Assembly: GCA_016125585.1 (NCBI GenBank)
Contig: WGLL01000004.1
Coordinates: forward strand, 146,308 to 210,307
Length of the DNA: 64,000 nucleotides
Direction: 5' to 3'
DNA from: Caulobacter sp.
GTDB taxonomy: Bacteria; Pseudomonadota; Alphaproteobacteria; Caulobacterales; Caulobacteraceae
In this document: positions 58,665 to 63,805 of the stretch, one piece after another
How the letters are laid out: every line of letters starts with the position of its first letter
How positions within the stretch are numbered: position 1 is the first letter of the stretch
Notes under the pieces: generated by a model
The model's input: the letters and a program-made list of their open reading frames with translations, nothing else
Told to the model about the DNA's origin: nothing
Databases searched by the model: none
Made by a program: the position numbers and the translations under genes

Positions 58665-60665
58665 CTACGCCTGCGTCAGGACGCTTTCCTCAACCACCCG
58701 CACGACATCGGCCATGATCTGGGTCAGCTTGAAATCCTTGGGCGTATAGACCCGGCGCACGCCCATCTGCTTGAGGATCAGGGCGTCCTCGGGGGGGATG
58801 ATTCCCCCGACGACCAGCGGCACCTCGCCGATGCCCTCGGCCCGCATCAGCCGCACGACCTCCTGCACCAGATCCAGGTGCGAGCCCGACAGGATCGACA
58901 GGCCGATGACGTGGGACTTCGCCTCGATGGCCCGGCGGACGATCTCTTCCGGCGTCGAGCGAATGCCGTCATAGACCACCTCCATGCCGCAGGCCCGGGC
59001 CCGGGTGGCGATCTGTTCGGCGCCGTTGCTGTGGCCGTCGAGGCCCGGCTTGCCGATCATGTAGTTCAGGGTCCGGCCCAGCGCCTTCGACACTCGCTCG
59101 ACCTCGGCCTTGACCGCCTCGATGTCTTCCTGGCCTTCGGGCGCGTCGCCGCTGGCCACGACCAAAGCCACCCCGGTGGGTCCGCGATACTCGCCGAACA
59201 CCTCCCGCAGGGCGAAGCTCCACTCGCCGGTCGTGACTCCGGCGCGGGCGGCGGCGATAGACGCCTCCATGATGTTGCGGCCCTCGGAAGCGGTTTTCTT
59301 CAGTATACGGATCGATTCGTCGGCCGCGACCTGATCCCGCGCCGCCCGCCAGGCCTTCAGCTTCCCGACGACCTCGGCTTCCAGCTTAGGATCGACCGTC
59401 TCGATGGAGCCTTCGCCGGCCGAGAGGGGGCTGGCCTCGCTGTCGGTCCAGCGGTTGACCCCGACCACGGTCATCTCGCCGGTCTCGATCTTGCGGAAGC
59501 GGTCGGCGTTGGACCCGACCAGCTGTTCCTTCATATAGCCGATCGCCGCCGCGGCCCCGCCCATGGCGTCGATCTTGGCCAGCTCCGCCATGGCCCCGCT
59601 CTTCAGCTGGGCGACCTTGGCCTCGACCACATGGCTGCCGTCGAACAGGTCCTCATATTCCAGAAGGTCGGTCTCATAGGCCAGAACCTGCTGCATCCGC
59701 AGGCTCCACTGCTGGTCCCAGGGCCGGGGCAGCCCCAGCGCCTCGTTCCACGCCGGCAGCTGCAGGGCCCGGGCGCGGGCGCCCTTGGACAGGGTCACGG
59801 CCAGGGCTTCCAGCAGGATGCGATAGGGATTGTTCTCCGGCTGCTGCTCGGTCAGGCCCAGGCTGTTGACCTGGACGCCATAGCGGAACCGCCGGGCCTT
59901 GAGGTCCTGCACGCCATAGCGGTCCTGCAGGATCTCATCCCACAGGGCGGTGAAGCTGCGCATCTTGCACAGCTCGGTGACGAAGCGGACGCCGGCGTTG
60001 ACGAAGAAACTGATCCGTGAACAGACGATCTCGAAATCGGCTTCGGGAACCTGCCCCCCGGCCCGCACCGTATCGAGCACCGAAATCGCCGTCGCCAGAG
60101 CGTAGGCCAGCTCCTGTTCCGGCGTCGCCCCGGCTTCCTGCAGGTGATAGCTGCAGACATTGATCGGGTTCCATTTGGGCGTCTCGCGATAGCACCAGGC
60201 CACCATGTCGCCGATCAGCTTCAGGCTCGGCTCGGGCGGGAAGATGTAGGTGCCGCGGGAAAGATATTCCTTGATCAGATCATTCTGGGTGGTGCCGGCC
60301 AGCTTGGCGCGGGGCGCGCCCTGCTCATCAGCGAGGGCCACATACATGGCCAGCAGCCAGGCCGCCGGCGCATTGATGGTCATGGAGGTGTTCATGCGAT
60401 CCAGCGGGATCGCCTCGAACAGGGTCCGCATGTCGCCCAGATGCCCGATCGGCACCCCGACCTTGCCCACCTCGCCCCGCGCCAGGATGTGATCGGCGTC
60501 GTAGCCGGTCTGGGTCGGCAGGTCGAAGGCTACCGACAGGCCTGTCTGGCCGGCCTCGAGATTGCGCCGGTAGAGGGCGTTGGACTTGGCCGCGTTGGAG
60601 TGTCCCGCATAGGTGCGGAAAATCCACGGGGCGTCGGCGGCGTGCTGGAAGGGTTTGTCTGTCAT
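58665..60665 (-). CDS. ecm: (2R)-Ethylmalonyl-CoA mutase
   Basis: The product has 666 residues. The substrate domain starts FRTYAGHSNAAKSNALYRRNLEAGQTGLSVAFDLPTQTGYD-like; DLPTQTGYD marks Ecm, whereas methylmalonyl-CoA mutases have DLATHRGYD. The C-terminal 130 residues are the B12-binding domain with DGHSNG (DxHxxG) and GLSILSGSHL. It turns ethylmalonyl-CoA into methylsuccinyl-CoA in the ethylmalonyl-CoA pathway, which lets cells assimilate acetyl-CoA without the glyoxylate shunt. Its partner ccr is 1.9 kb away. No strong ribosome site precedes the ATG at 60665. Confidence 0.93.
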   Translation of the reverse strand: MTDKPFQHAADAPWIFRTYAGHSNAAKSNALYRRNLEAGQTGLSVAFDLPTQTGYDADHILARGEVGKVGVPIGHLGDMRTLFEAIPLDRMNTSMTINAPAAWLLAMYVALADEQGAPRAKLAGTTQNDLIKEYLSRGTYIFPPEPSLKLIGDMVAWCYRETPKWNPINVCSYHLQEAGATPEQELAYALATAISVLDTVRAGGQVPEADFEIVCSRISFFVNAGVRFVTELCKMRSFTALWDEILQDRYGVQDLKARRFRYGVQVNSLGLTEQQPENNPYRILLEALAVTLSKGARARALQLPAWNEALGLPRPWDQQWSLRMQQVLAYETDLLEYEDLFDGSHVVEAKVAQLKSGAMAELAKIDAMGGAAAAIGYMKEQLVGSNADRFRKIETGEMTVVGVNRWTDSEASPLSAGEGSIETVDPKLEAEVVGKLKAWRAARDQVAADESIRILKKTASEGRNIMEASIAAARAGVTTGEWSFALREVFGEYRGPTGVALVVASGDAPEGQEDIEAVKAEVERVSKALGRTLNYMIGKPGLDGHSNGAEQIATRARACGMEVVYDGIRSTPEEIVRRAIEAKSHVIGLSILSGSHLDLVQEVVRLMRAEGIGEVPLVVGGIIPPEDALILKQMGVRRVYTPKDFKLTQIMADVVRVVEESVLTQA

Positions 60666-60705
60666 CGGGCGCGGATCATGGCGATCAGCCTGCTGCGGCG
60701 CAACA

Positions 60706-60743
60706 GGGGACAGGTTGATCGCGACAGCGAGCTACCTGTCCCC
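60706..60743 (+). repeat. RAYT-associated palindrome, left
   Basis: Ten-base arms GGGGACAGGT (60706-60715) and ACCTGTCCCC (60734-60743) enclose an inner TCGC-GACA-GCGA hairpin (60719-60730). Confidence 0.85.
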
Positions 60744-60751
60744 AGCCAACC

Positions 60752-60780
60752 TTGACATCCAACAGGCAACGAGCACATTT
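60752..60780 (+). promoter_or_regulatory. Putative promoter of the RAYT gene
   Basis: TTGACA (60752-60757), a 17-base spacer and ACATTT (60775-60780) lie 29 bases before the start codon in an AT-rich stretch. The -10 match is weak. Confidence 0.4.
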
Positions 60781-60809
60781 GTTCTTTAATTGTTCTCCTC
60801 GAGGCTCGC

Positions 60810-61511
60810 ATGGCCCGAACCGCGCGCATCGTTCTGCCCGGCTTGCCGCATCATGTTATGCAGCGCGGCAATCGTCGGCAGGCGATCTTCCTCAAGGCTG
60901 GTGACGAAAAGCGCTATCTGCACATGCTTGCCGCCCAGTGCGAGCGTTGGCGGGTCGAGGTCTGGGCCTATTGCCTCATGCCCAACCATGTTCATCTGGT
61001 CCTGACGCCACGGAGCGTTGAGGGCCTGGCGCGGGTCGTTGGCGAGACACACCGCCAATACTCCAGATTCATCAACCGTCGCGAAGGTTGGACCGGCCAT
61101 TTGTTTCAGGATCGCTTTGCCTCCAGCCCGATGGACGAGAGGCATCTGATCGCCGCCTTTCGATATCTCGCGCTCAATCCTGTCCGAGCAGGTTTGGTCG
61201 ACCGGGCCCAGGACTGGTCGTGGTCGAGCGTGCACGCGCACCTGATGCGGCGTGACGGGCGGCTGGTGCGGGTGGCGCCGTTGCTGGACCGCGTGGATGA
61301 CGTGGAGGGATTGTTTGCGCCCGACCCTCGAACCGACAGGCGTTGGGCGGCGGAGATCGCGACGATCCGTGCCGGAGCAGCAGCCGGAGCGCCTGTGGGG
61401 ACAAGGAACTTTGTCGCCAGAGTGCGAGCGTCGGCTGCAAGAGCATGGGCAGCGCAGGTCGGCGCCGATCGGGGACAGGTAGCTCGCGAATGCGAGCAAC
61501 CTGTCCCCTAG
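60810..61511 (+). CDS. REP-associated tyrosine transposase (RAYT, Y1/IS200-like)
   Basis: The product has 233 residues. The HUH motif is in CLMPNHVHLVL (His60, His62), and the candidate catalytic Tyr is Tyr84 in HRQYSRFINRR. GHLFQDRFAS and YLALNPVRAGLV are RAYT signatures. These enzymes bind and cut single-stranded REP hairpins. The last 13 codons (GQVARECEQPVP and stop) are encoded by the right palindrome itself. The gene lies between ecm and the enoyl-CoA hydratase-like gene. The TAG stop overlaps the stop of that convergent gene in a shared CTAG. Confidence 0.9.
   Translation: MARTARIVLPGLPHHVMQRGNRRQAIFLKAGDEKRYLHMLAAQCERWRVEVWAYCLMPNHVHLVLTPRSVEGLARVVGETHRQYSRFINRREGWTGHLFQDRFASSPMDERHLIAAFRYLALNPVRAGLVDRAQDWSWSSVHAHLMRRDGRLVRVAPLLDRVDDVEGLFAPDPRTDRRWAAEIATIRAGAAAGAPVGTRNFVARVRASAARAWAAQVGADRGQVARECEQPVP
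61471..61508 (-). repeat. RAYT-associated palindrome, right (inverted)
   Basis: GGGGACAGGT (61471-61480) and ACCTGTCCCC (61499-61508) enclose an inner GCTCGC-GAAT-GCGAGC stem (61482-61497). It lies inside the 3' end of the RAYT gene. Confidence 0.85.
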
Positions 61512-62236
61512 GATCGACCGAACACCGGCGTTTCCTTTCGCGAGAAGGCCGCCAGGGCGGCCTGGTGGTCGGCGCTGTGGAACAGGGCGGCCAGTTCGGC
61601 CCGCTCGTCGAAGGGGCGGCCGACGACGCGCTTGACCGCCTCGACCGACAGGGGCGCGCGGCTGGCGATGCGGGCGGCGATGGCCAGGGCCTCGGCCAGC
61701 ACCTGCTCATGCACCCCGGTGACCAGGCCCCGGACCAGGGCGGTGTCGGCGTCGATGGGCGAACCGGTCAGCAGCATGGCCTTGGCCGGCCCCTCGCCGA
61801 TCAGCCGGGGCAGGCGTTTGACCGAGGCCATCAGCCCGACATTGACCCCCGAGGCGGTGAAGATGGCGTCCGGCGAGGCCAGGCGGATATCGCAGGCCAG
61901 GGACAGCTCCAGCCCGCCGCCCATGGCCCAGCCGTTGACCGCGGCGATGACCGGAACCCGCAGCGCCTCGATCCGGCTCATCAGCAGGTTGAAACCGTAG
62001 ACGGCCTCCAGCCCCTCAGCCGGCGGCCTGGCGGCGGCCTCCATCAGGTCGTCGCCGGCGCAGAAGGCCCGGCCCCGCCCGGTCAGGACCACCGCCCGCA
62101 CCGCCAGATCGGCGTCCGCCTCGGTCAGCGCCAGCTCCAGGGCGGTCCGCATCGCCATGCCCAGCGTGTTGGCCGGAGGCGCGTCCAGTTCGATCAGAAC
62201 GACATCATGCGAGGGACGGCTGACGTGCAGGGGCAT
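61508..62236 (-). CDS. Enoyl-CoA hydratase/isomerase family protein
   Basis: The product has 242 residues from the ATG at 62236. The crotonase fold has AVVLTGRGRAFCAGDDLME (first oxyanion strand) and AAVNGWAMGGGLELSLACDIRLAS (second oxyanion turn, with one Glu). The place where hydratases carry their second catalytic Glu (usually PE..LG) reads VNVGLMASVKRLPR here and lacks it, so isomerase, hydrolase or another crotonase activity is more likely than hydration. It is divergent from ccr. Its stop codon includes the last base of the RAYT palindrome, so the C-terminus has been set by that repeat. Confidence 0.85.
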   Translation of the reverse strand: MPLHVSRPSHDVVLIELDAPPANTLGMAMRTALELALTEADADLAVRAVVLTGRGRAFCAGDDLMEAAARPPAEGLEAVYGFNLLMSRIEALRVPVIAAVNGWAMGGGLELSLACDIRLASPDAIFTASGVNVGLMASVKRLPRLIGEGPAKAMLLTGSPIDADTALVRGLVTGVHEQVLAEALAIAARIASRAPLSVEAVKRVVGRPFDERAELAALFHSADHQAALAAFSRKETPVFGRS

Positions 62237-62530: not shown

Positions 62531-63805
62531 ATGACCACCGCCACCCTCGATAAAACCGAATTGAAGGACCTCTACGAGATCGGCGAGATCCCGCCCCTCG
62601 GCCATGTCCCCGCGAAGATGTACGCCTGGGCCATCCGCAAGGAACGCCATGGCCGGCCGGACAAGGCCATGCAGGTCGAGGTGGTGCCCACCTGGGAGAT
62701 CGGCGAGGACGAGGTGCTGGTGCTCGTGATGGCCGCCGGCGTGAACTACAACGGCGTCTGGGCCTCGCTGGGCGAGCCGATCAGCCCGCTGGACGGGCAC
62801 AAGCATCCCTACCACATCGCCGGCTCCGACGCCTCGGGCATCGTCTACAAGGTCGGCGCCAAGGTGAAGCGCTGGAAGGTCGGCGACGAGGTGGTCGTCC
62901 ACTGCAATCAGGACGACGGCGACGACGAGGAGTGCAACGGCGGCGACCCGATGTATTCGACCAGCCAGCGGATCTGGGGCTACGAGACCCCGGACGGCAG
63001 CTTCGCCCAGTTCTGCCGGGTGCAGTCGCGTCAGCTGATGCCCCGCCCCCAGCACCTGACCTGGGAAGAGAGCGCCTGCTACACCCTGACCCTGGCCACC
63101 GCCTATCGCATGCTGTTCGGCCACCAGCCCCATGAGCTGAAACCCGGCCAGAACGTGCTGGTCTGGGGCGCTTCTGGCGGTCTCGGCGTCTTCGCCGTGC
63201 AGCTGGCCGCGGTCACCGGGGCCAACGCCATCGGCGTGGTCAGCTCCGAGGACAAGGTCGACTATGTGCTCAGCCAGGGCGCCAAGGCGGTGCTCAATCG
63301 CAACGACTTCAACTGCTGGGGCCAGCTGCCGACCGTCAACGGACCGGAATTCTCCGACTACATGAAGGAAACCCGGAAATTCGGTAAAGCCATCTGGCAG
63401 ATCACCGGCAACCGCGACGTCGACATGGTCTTCGAACATCCGGGTGAAGCGACCTTCCCGGTCAGCGTTTTCCTGGTCAAGCGCGGCGGCATGGTCGCCA
63501 TCTGCGCCGGCACGAGCGGCTACAACCTGACCATGGACGCCCGCTTCCTGTGGATGCGCCAGAAGCGCGTCCAGGGCAGCCACTTCGCCAACCTGATGCA
63601 GGCCTCGGCCGCCAACCAGCTGGTCATCGACCGCCGCATCGACCCCTGCCTGTCGGAGGTCTTCACCTGGGACGACATTCCCGCCGCCCACGAGAAGATG
63701 CTCGATAACAAGCACCCGCCCGGAAACATGGGGGTGCTGGTCTGCGCCCAGAAGCCGGGCCTGCGGACCTTCGAGGAAGTTCAGGACCTCAGCGCGCCGC
63801 TCTAG
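62531..63805 (+). CDS. ccr: Crotonyl-CoA carboxylase/reductase
   Basis: The product has 424 residues. The medium-chain reductase fold begins at KDLYEIGEIPPLGHVPAKMYAW, a Ccr hallmark. VNYNGVWASLGEPIS (near 71-85) holds the Asn of the CO2 pocket. VLVWGASGGLGVFAVQLA (near 210) binds NADPH. DVDMVFEHPGEATFPVSVFL and GTSGYNLTMDARFLWMRQKRVQGSHFA are also typical. It reduces and carboxylates crotonyl-CoA to ethylmalonyl-CoA, the committed step of the ethylmalonyl-CoA pathway. With ecm this shows the pathway is present. The TAG stop lies at the edge of a family-1 palindrome. Confidence 0.96.
   Translation: MTTATLDKTELKDLYEIGEIPPLGHVPAKMYAWAIRKERHGRPDKAMQVEVVPTWEIGEDEVLVLVMAAGVNYNGVWASLGEPISPLDGHKHPYHIAGSDASGIVYKVGAKVKRWKVGDEVVVHCNQDDGDDEECNGGDPMYSTSQRIWGYETPDGSFAQFCRVQSRQLMPRPQHLTWEESACYTLTLATAYRMLFGHQPHELKPGQNVLVWGASGGLGVFAVQLAAVTGANAIGVVSSEDKVDYVLSQGAKAVLNRNDFNCWGQLPTVNGPEFSDYMKETRKFGKAIWQITGNRDVDMVFEHPGEATFPVSVFLVKRGGMVAICAGTSGYNLTMDARFLWMRQKRVQGSHFANLMQASAANQLVIDRRIDPCLSEVFTWDDIPAAHEKMLDNKHPPGNMGVLVCAQKPGLRTFEEVQDLSAPL

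Follow-up and report, generated by a model that had tools for sequence, protein, structure and literature searches.

A single-copy TIRtron between an enoyl-CoA hydratase-like gene and ecm in Caulobacter, with gene-less pairs of mismatch-marked hairpins, likely copied by its enzyme, in sister genomes

RAYT-like genes that lie between inverted repeats, several of which carry the tag GGGGWSAS, were described by Di Nocera et al. (2013; PMC3733652), who named the units 'TIRtrons' and their enzymes TIRYT. In that description the repeats form moderately abundant families in some species, with some members arranged as dimers. Quentin et al. (2018; PMC6006769) placed 20 of 26 TIRtron examples in subclass 2.1 of the TnpA-Y1 enzymes, which is characterized by an NHVH motif and a median length of 238 amino acids, and reported that REP-like sequences were not found near subclass 2.1 genes. 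Two further systems bear on the locus described here. The REPIN/RAYT system, as presented by Bertels and Rainey (2011; PMC3116915), combines extragenic pairs of hairpins in inverted orientation, separated by a variable spacer, with one HUH enzyme, an arrangement that recurs in our material; single hairpins are taken in that work as remnants. The TnpA-REP enzyme of E. coli, according to the work reported in PMC8266576, needs a bulge in the stem of its hairpin and processes REP sequences but not inverted REP sequences.

The unit that we analyzed lies in the window, a 64,000-nucleotide stretch of Caulobacter sp. DNA from the genome that we call G000, and has the composition of a TIRtron: a RAYT-like HUH gene of about 230 codons with an NHVH motif, flanked by inverted repeats that carry the GGGGWSAS tag, as in the published examples (PMC3733652; PMC6006769). 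Both self-complementary repeats and overlap of a repeat with the 3′ end of the gene, which we also observed here, are known among the TIRtrons listed by Di Nocera et al. (PMC3733652). The original prediction had described two 38-nucleotide palindromes with identical 10-nucleotide arms set in inverse orientation around a single Y1/HUH gene, and both were found as described (Table 1), with the outer arms GGGGACAGGT/ACCTGTCCCC shared by the two palindromes and a GGGGACA-type tag at both ends of the unit (GGGGACAG). The gene order was likewise as predicted, with an ecm-like mutase gene (minus strand), the unit, the enoyl-CoA hydratase-like gene (minus strand), and ccr (plus strand), and the transposase gene is an intact ORF. 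When folded as single-stranded DNA, the plus strand of the left palindrome reached −17.0 kcal/mol and that of the right palindrome −19.8 kcal/mol (z of −8.33 and −8.95, respectively, against shuffled sequences). The palindromes are imperfect, pair 11 forming a T-T mismatch on one strand and an A-A mismatch on its complement. Because the polarity of this mismatch is opposite at the two ends, the 'inverse orientation' of the hairpins is a meaningful property, and owing to the inversion any one strand has a T-T hairpin at one end of the unit and an A-A hairpin at the other.

Table 1. Features of the TIRtron and its neighbors in the window (positions are those of the 64,000-nucleotide stretch)
Feature	Position	Strand	Remarks
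ecm-like gene, methylmalonyl-CoA mutase family	58665..60665	-	the name 'ecm' is suggested by the adjoining ccr
Conserved block preceding ecm, TTGCGCYGCAGCA...CATGATC	60666..60705	-	left intact by the insertion; possibly promoter-like
Left terminal palindrome, 38 nt	60706..60743	+	T-T at pair 11 and A-G mismatch at pair 13 (plus strand)
Transposase gene, TIRYT-type Y1/HUH, 233 aa	60810..61511	+	NHVH at residues 59-62; Y119 in YLALNP
Right terminal palindrome, 38 nt	61471..61508	-	T-T on the minus strand, A-A on the plus strand; doubles as the last 13 transposase codons
TAG stop of the enoyl-CoA hydratase-like gene	61508..61510	-	shares its G (61508) with the right palindrome, of which this is the outermost base
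Enoyl-CoA hydratase/isomerase-like gene (ECH)	61508..62236	-	start codon picked by inspection
ccr, crotonyl-CoA carboxylase/reductase	62531..63805	+	start codon picked by inspection

Judged by its sequence, the unit is a TIRtron with a TIRYT enzyme rather than a RAYT associated with GTAG REPs. The protein matched the Pfam transposase family Y1_Tnp (E = 5.9e-14), and in an alignment of 28 homologues every sequence has H60 and H62 and at least 90% have Y119. A phmmer comparison with 4er8, the structure of TnpA-REP with a REP hairpin, gave 3.4e-5, and the AlphaFold model of the transposase (pLDDT 91.4), which has extra C-terminal helices, found the same structure as its top fold match (E = 8.1e-9, 19% identity), followed by the IS608 and ISDra2 transposases. 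A C-terminal extension resembling helix-turn-helix domains is among the traits of the TIRYT class; no Pfam HTH match to the protein was found up to an E value of 10. Of the label RAYT in the original prediction, the part that stands is membership in the Y1/HUH group of the RAYT superfamily, as indicated by the Y1_Tnp match and the closest fold. The unit is not a canonical RAYT, because the protein scored 68.6 bits against the NCBIfam model REP_Tyr_transpos (NF047646), below the cutoff of 80, because the hairpin foot is GGGGACA rather than the canonical GTAG or GTGG, and because the unit fits the TIRYT/TIRtron description; a canonical GTAG REPtron was rejected on the foot and the score. The motifs NHVH and YLALNP conform to the Y1 HUH core of the TIRYTs (NH[VYF]H and Y---NP), and in length, motifs, and tag the transposase matches subclass 2.1. 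The tag is also widespread among homologues: of 88 loci, 64 have GG[GT]GACA upstream of the gene, 60 have the complement of this tag downstream, and 50 have the two together, whereas the reversed motif occurs in 4, 2, and 0 of the same loci, respectively (the 88 were retained from 110 homologue loci after removal of 7 fragments, 5 duplicates, and loci with short flanks). Comparison of the G000 enzyme with that of the sister genome G019 gave a dN/dS of ~0.13 (0.19/1.49, with dS saturated), and the gene shows in this the signature of purifying selection.

As predicted, the right palindrome is read as the end of the enzyme: beginning at the second base of codon 221, it covers codons 221–233 and is followed directly by the TAG stop. 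The further claim that gene and substrate DNA are fused fared less well. The palindrome overlaps the 3′ end of the ORF in all four elements that we found at the ECH–ecm site, and the frames of G000, G019, and G039 run through it; the G060 element reads it in another frame and ends three codons into it. Residues 221–233 are among the least confident of the AlphaFold model. Because the reading frame is not kept in G060, we rejected fusion as a conserved design; the overlap looks incidental and is better seen as tight packing, and overlap with the 3′ end of the gene is a category in the figure legends of Di Nocera et al. (2013; PMC3733652).

We surveyed the site in 75 genomes of the genus, of which 40 had a match to the hydratase gene; 30 of these loci were read, and 15 contained ecm as well. 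At these 15 loci, the comparison among sister species that had been proposed with the original prediction found a transposase in 4 (G000, G019, G060, and G039) and none in 11, two of which (G059 and G105) have 600–900 nucleotides of other sequence between the two genes. In a quick tree of 98 enzymes (12 of the 110 homologue loci, comprising 7 fragments and 5 duplicates, were left out), the enzymes of G000, G019, and G060 formed one clade (SH-aLRT 100, ~70% identity), each of these three species having one copy of the clade at one site. The G039 enzyme fell outside this clade (55% identity), and the palindromes of its element have another stem and long loops, so that it is probably a separate arrival at the ECH–ecm site. 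Host trees made from the hydratase and ecm DNA placed G014, in which the site is empty, inside the G019/G060/G039 group and G000 outside it, with the two trees disagreeing within the group. The simplest reading of these trees would be one old insertion, followed by loss in G014 and by separate arrival or replacement in G039. The transposase-free gap of G014 (L145) reads TGAGGACACTCCGATG, whose GGACA is similar to the inner bases of the tag and may represent an excision scar or have arisen by chance. A block like the one upstream of ecm in the window (TTGCGCYGCAGCA...CATGATC) also precedes ecm in most of the other ECH–ecm loci, and in the window, as in its nearest relatives, the ecm start codon falls a few bases past this block, like that of a leaderless promoter.

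The exact motif GGGGACAGGT-N8-30-ACCTGTCCCC occurs in the 3.96-Mb window genome only at the two ends of the unit, and its reversed control gave no match there; a half-palindrome search of the same genome with up to three mismatches was at chance level (380/336 matches, compared with 372/325 for the reversed control). We then searched for the hairpin class by pattern in seven genomes and with a covariance model built from 17 palindromes in the 75 genomes of the genus. These wider searches added two places in the window genome to the two unit ends: a 69-nucleotide form at C4:188637 and, at C9:6280, a 70-nucleotide relative without the mismatch. Few offspring of the unit are left in the window genome. 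The 69-nucleotide form (C4:188637–188705), which recurs at G060:C12:110063–110131, has a long loop together with the same 10-nucleotide arm and T-T mismatch. A G019 relative (L227) has the same two flanks as a complete hairpin pair of G060 (L240). At G000:C3:37221–37298 (L016, L017), GGGGACAGG heads point outward on either side of a different hairpin-rich repeat (GTCATCCCGG...).

Covariance matches better than 1e-6 were confined to five of the 75 genomes (G000, G019, G060, G039, and G014); across the other 70 the best match was 6.9e-4, and seven of them had 1–4 weak matches each. At an E value of 0.01 or better, there were 75 matches in G060, 53 in G019, 14 in G014, 8 in G039, and 7 in G000, the number of places being lower than the number of matches because palindromes can match on both strands. 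Among the matches listed, at least 30 hairpin places in G019 and at least 51 in G060 lie apart from the resident element; 24 of the former make up 12 pairs, and 36 of the latter 18 pairs. Pairs within 200 nucleotides account for 60 of the 81 places listed for the two genomes, a share taken from this match list rather than from the 38 sister loci that we picked by hand, pairs first, for closer reading. Of the 36 loci analyzed, 28 were pair-like, 25 with both ends recognized by a strict rule, and the pairs that were read are inverted and 123–175 nucleotides long. The original prediction had named, as the case that would speak against it, a genome lacking further copies together with relatives that all keep a conserved RAYT with different repeats. 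We found instead two further members of the hairpin class in the window genome and two relatives that keep the same kind of repeat at the site alongside large populations. G014 has nine hairpin places at an E value of 0.01 or better yet lacks the enzyme at the ECH–ecm site, and G039 has an inverted pair of the window class though its resident element has other palindromes, so enzyme and hairpin population can part. Two of the G019 pairs (L216 and L217) lie ~2 kb apart, and their outer flanks are joined at a single pair in G060 (L229), as if the segment between them had been lost or gained by recombination between pairs. A literature search of titles and abstracts found no description of this hairpin class.

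The ends of the pairs follow, with some variants, the scheme GGGGACnGGT-T-stem-loop-stem-T-ACCTGTCCCC, which in many copies is followed by GGTCAGCGCCGG or a close form, the subterminal sequence of the gene-bearing units of G019 and G060. When read outer arm first, pair 11 was T-T in all 50 ends of the 25 recognized pairs, and the inner partner at pair 7 was T in 50 of 50, with a variable outer base 7 (C in 20, G in 16, A in 10, and T in 4). Across distinct places, after removal of overlapping duplicates, the T-T was present at 72 of 73 (76 of 77 with overlaps), as counted by a rule that ignored pair 11 among hairpins fetched with a model that contained T at that pair. Stem pairs 12–15, which were free in the fetching pattern, each showed changes on both sides (compensatory changes); the first solo hairpins had been fetched with the outer 8 pairs fixed, and only the inner pairs test covariation. 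The mismatch region of the A-A strand (bases 9–12) is GTAG in 44 of 72 places (including the right palindrome of the window, plus strand, 61479–61482), GTAC at 17, and otherwise at 11, and this inner-stem GTAG may echo the GTAG of canonical REPs as a hidden link.

Many of these hairpins abut genes. At 37 of 50 scorable hairpin ends in the sister loci, the stop codon of a gene lies −11 to +1 nucleotides away, including 12 ends at +1, where the first G of the hairpin completes a TAG; at the remaining 13 the stop is farther away or the gene frame runs into the element. The 50 ends are those with a GC3 frame among 72 ends of 36 loci (of the 38 fetched, one was overlapped by a neighbor and one lay at a contig end), and the loci are not all independent because some sites are common to G019 and G060. 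For comparison, ~6% of intergenic bases lie within 11 nucleotides of a stop, a crude null that was derived from GC3-called frames and in which missed genes inflate the gaps. One site (L243) has a pair in G060 and is cleanly empty in six genomes (G000, G014, G019, G039, G017, and G110); by inspection, the empty site in G014 and G039 has a TAG directly followed by TCA, like two abutting convergent stops. At the site next to a gene that we take to be eno-like, the pair is present in G060 only, the neighbors have changed in relatives, and no clean empty site was found; at L217 the pair is present in G019 and absent from G039, the neighboring sequence differs, and again no clean empty site was found. 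No target duplication was noticed. Supply of stop codons by hairpins has a precedent, because GTAG REPs, as described by Di Nocera et al. (PMC3733652), often supply the TAG stop of a flanking ORF; their foot itself carries the TAG, whereas the Caulobacter hairpin gives only the G of TA|G.

The window genome contains a second TIRtron (L002; G000:C4:147346–148321), between what are presumably ahcY-like and kinase-like genes, whose TIRYT (at C4:147508) is 51% identical to the window enzyme and whose palindromes are longer, with the arm GGTGACAGTCACTTTTTTC. Allowing up to one mismatch, this arm occurs 18 times in G000 and 24 times in G048, while none of the other 73 genomes has it more than twice. 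G000 and G048 are both known to hold the second enzyme, their two copies being 92% alike, in a search that covered 61 of the 75 genomes. From the distributions of GGTGACAGTCACTTTTTTC and of the window hairpin, we therefore recognize two enzyme lineages, each with its own hairpin family. None of five scorable ends of the second family lies within 11 nucleotides of a stop, and because this family does not hug stops, the stop preference is not general to the TIRtron class.

Compared with the described TIRtrons, the Caulobacter repeats are distinguished by being short, mismatch-marked hairpins, many of them at stop codons, and by the fact that most of the listed gene-less copies are inverted pairs with a common subterminal sequence. 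They have the arrangement of REPINs, namely dispersed inverted pairs outside genes that are linked to one transposase, and so the population is REPIN-like in a subclass for which Quentin et al. (PMC6006769) reported no REP-like sequences. In contrast to REPINs and their RAYTs, however, the hairpins lack the GTAG foot, the enzyme belongs to another subclass, and the copies number tens rather than hundreds. The closest solved fold, that of E. coli TnpA-REP (PMC8266576; 4er8), recognizes a hairpin with an internal stem mismatch, as we propose here, although the window foot is GGGGACA rather than GTAG, the mismatch is a single T-T rather than an AA-GC bulge, and the two proteins are 19% identical across the aligned fold.

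Together, these observations make it probable, in our assessment, that the unit is a single-copy TIRtron inserted between the stop codon of the hydratase-like gene and ecm, with an enzyme that is predicted to bind T-T-mismatch hairpins as single strands and that has likely copied gene-less pairs in the sister genomes. Its likely role in spreading hairpins follows from the sister genomes, where hairpins of this kind occur without a gene in tens of copies and often adjoin stop codons; mobility by this enzyme is an inference. By analogy with the bulge of E. coli REPs, the T-T mismatch would tell the enzyme which strand to bind or process, and by analogy with REPINs, the inverted hairpin pair would be the copied mobile unit and single hairpins its remnants. 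An element that lands just past a gene, with a G able to complete a TAG, would make a harmless insertion.

We regard it as unlikely, though the least so among the alternatives, that the gene has been domesticated and is autoregulated by its flanking palindromes, with the scattered copies being relics that no longer move by the action of the enzyme. Such a history would fit the purifying selection on the gene, the finding that each of three species has an enzyme of the clade just once, at a single site, and the small number of hairpins left in the window genome. It is harder to reconcile with the G060 pair at L243 and its clean empty counterpart in six genomes. In addition, four G019 loci (L214–L217), lying in two neighboring couples, have an identical left hairpin, which suggests fairly recent copying, with segmental duplication also possible.

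The position of many copies at 3′ ends, several of them between convergent frames, raises the alternative that the hairpins persist chiefly because they serve as gene-end signals in RNA or DNA, either terminating transcription in both directions or stabilizing mRNA, with the transposase a passenger or former source, and maintenance of stem pairing by compensatory change would be expected of such signals too. We nevertheless consider this explanation improbable. An intrinsic terminator and a known RNA family were both rejected, since the window palindromes gave no terminator signal and the hairpins no Rfam family match. Relative to the outside of the element, the T-T and the inner base of pair 7 are oriented the same way in all 50 ends, a constancy for which a symmetric terminator would have no use, and strong matches occur in only five genomes, all related and three of them with the enzyme clade. 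Lastly, an ordinary IS200/IS605 insertion sequence, excised as a single strand between two same-strand hairpins, would account for the HUH/Y1 fold and the fold matches to IS608 and ISDra2, but we rejected it as very improbable because the ends are inverted, leaving only one T-T hairpin per strand, because the sole other match in the same genome is 51% identical rather than a near-identical second copy, and because the enzyme has YLALNP where Quentin et al. (2018; PMC6006769) give Y---Q for IS200.

Returning to the preferred reading of a TIRtron whose enzyme has likely spread hairpin pairs, a broader proposal can be put forward tentatively, as something that we find possible but on balance doubtful: that a TIRYT branch thought to be free of REPs runs its own REPIN system in Caulobacter. 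Such a system would combine a constant GGGGACA tag, an obligatory T-T that marks the strand, inverted pairs that target stop codons and can rebuild the TAG with their own first base, so that insertion would be harmless by design, and a private stem for each enzyme lineage. TIRtrons have been defined by way of their repeats, and whether TIRYT enzymes drive repeat populations was left open in the accounts of Di Nocera et al. (PMC3733652) and Quentin et al. (PMC6006769). In Caulobacter, the same 75 genomes allow two enzyme lineages to be traced, each together with its private hairpin family, and the window family, with its near-invariant mismatch and its filled and empty sites, offers a small testable system. 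This system could show how HUH enzymes recognize a hairpin strand when the foot is not GTAG, and how repeat populations are maintained or lost under domesticated transposases.
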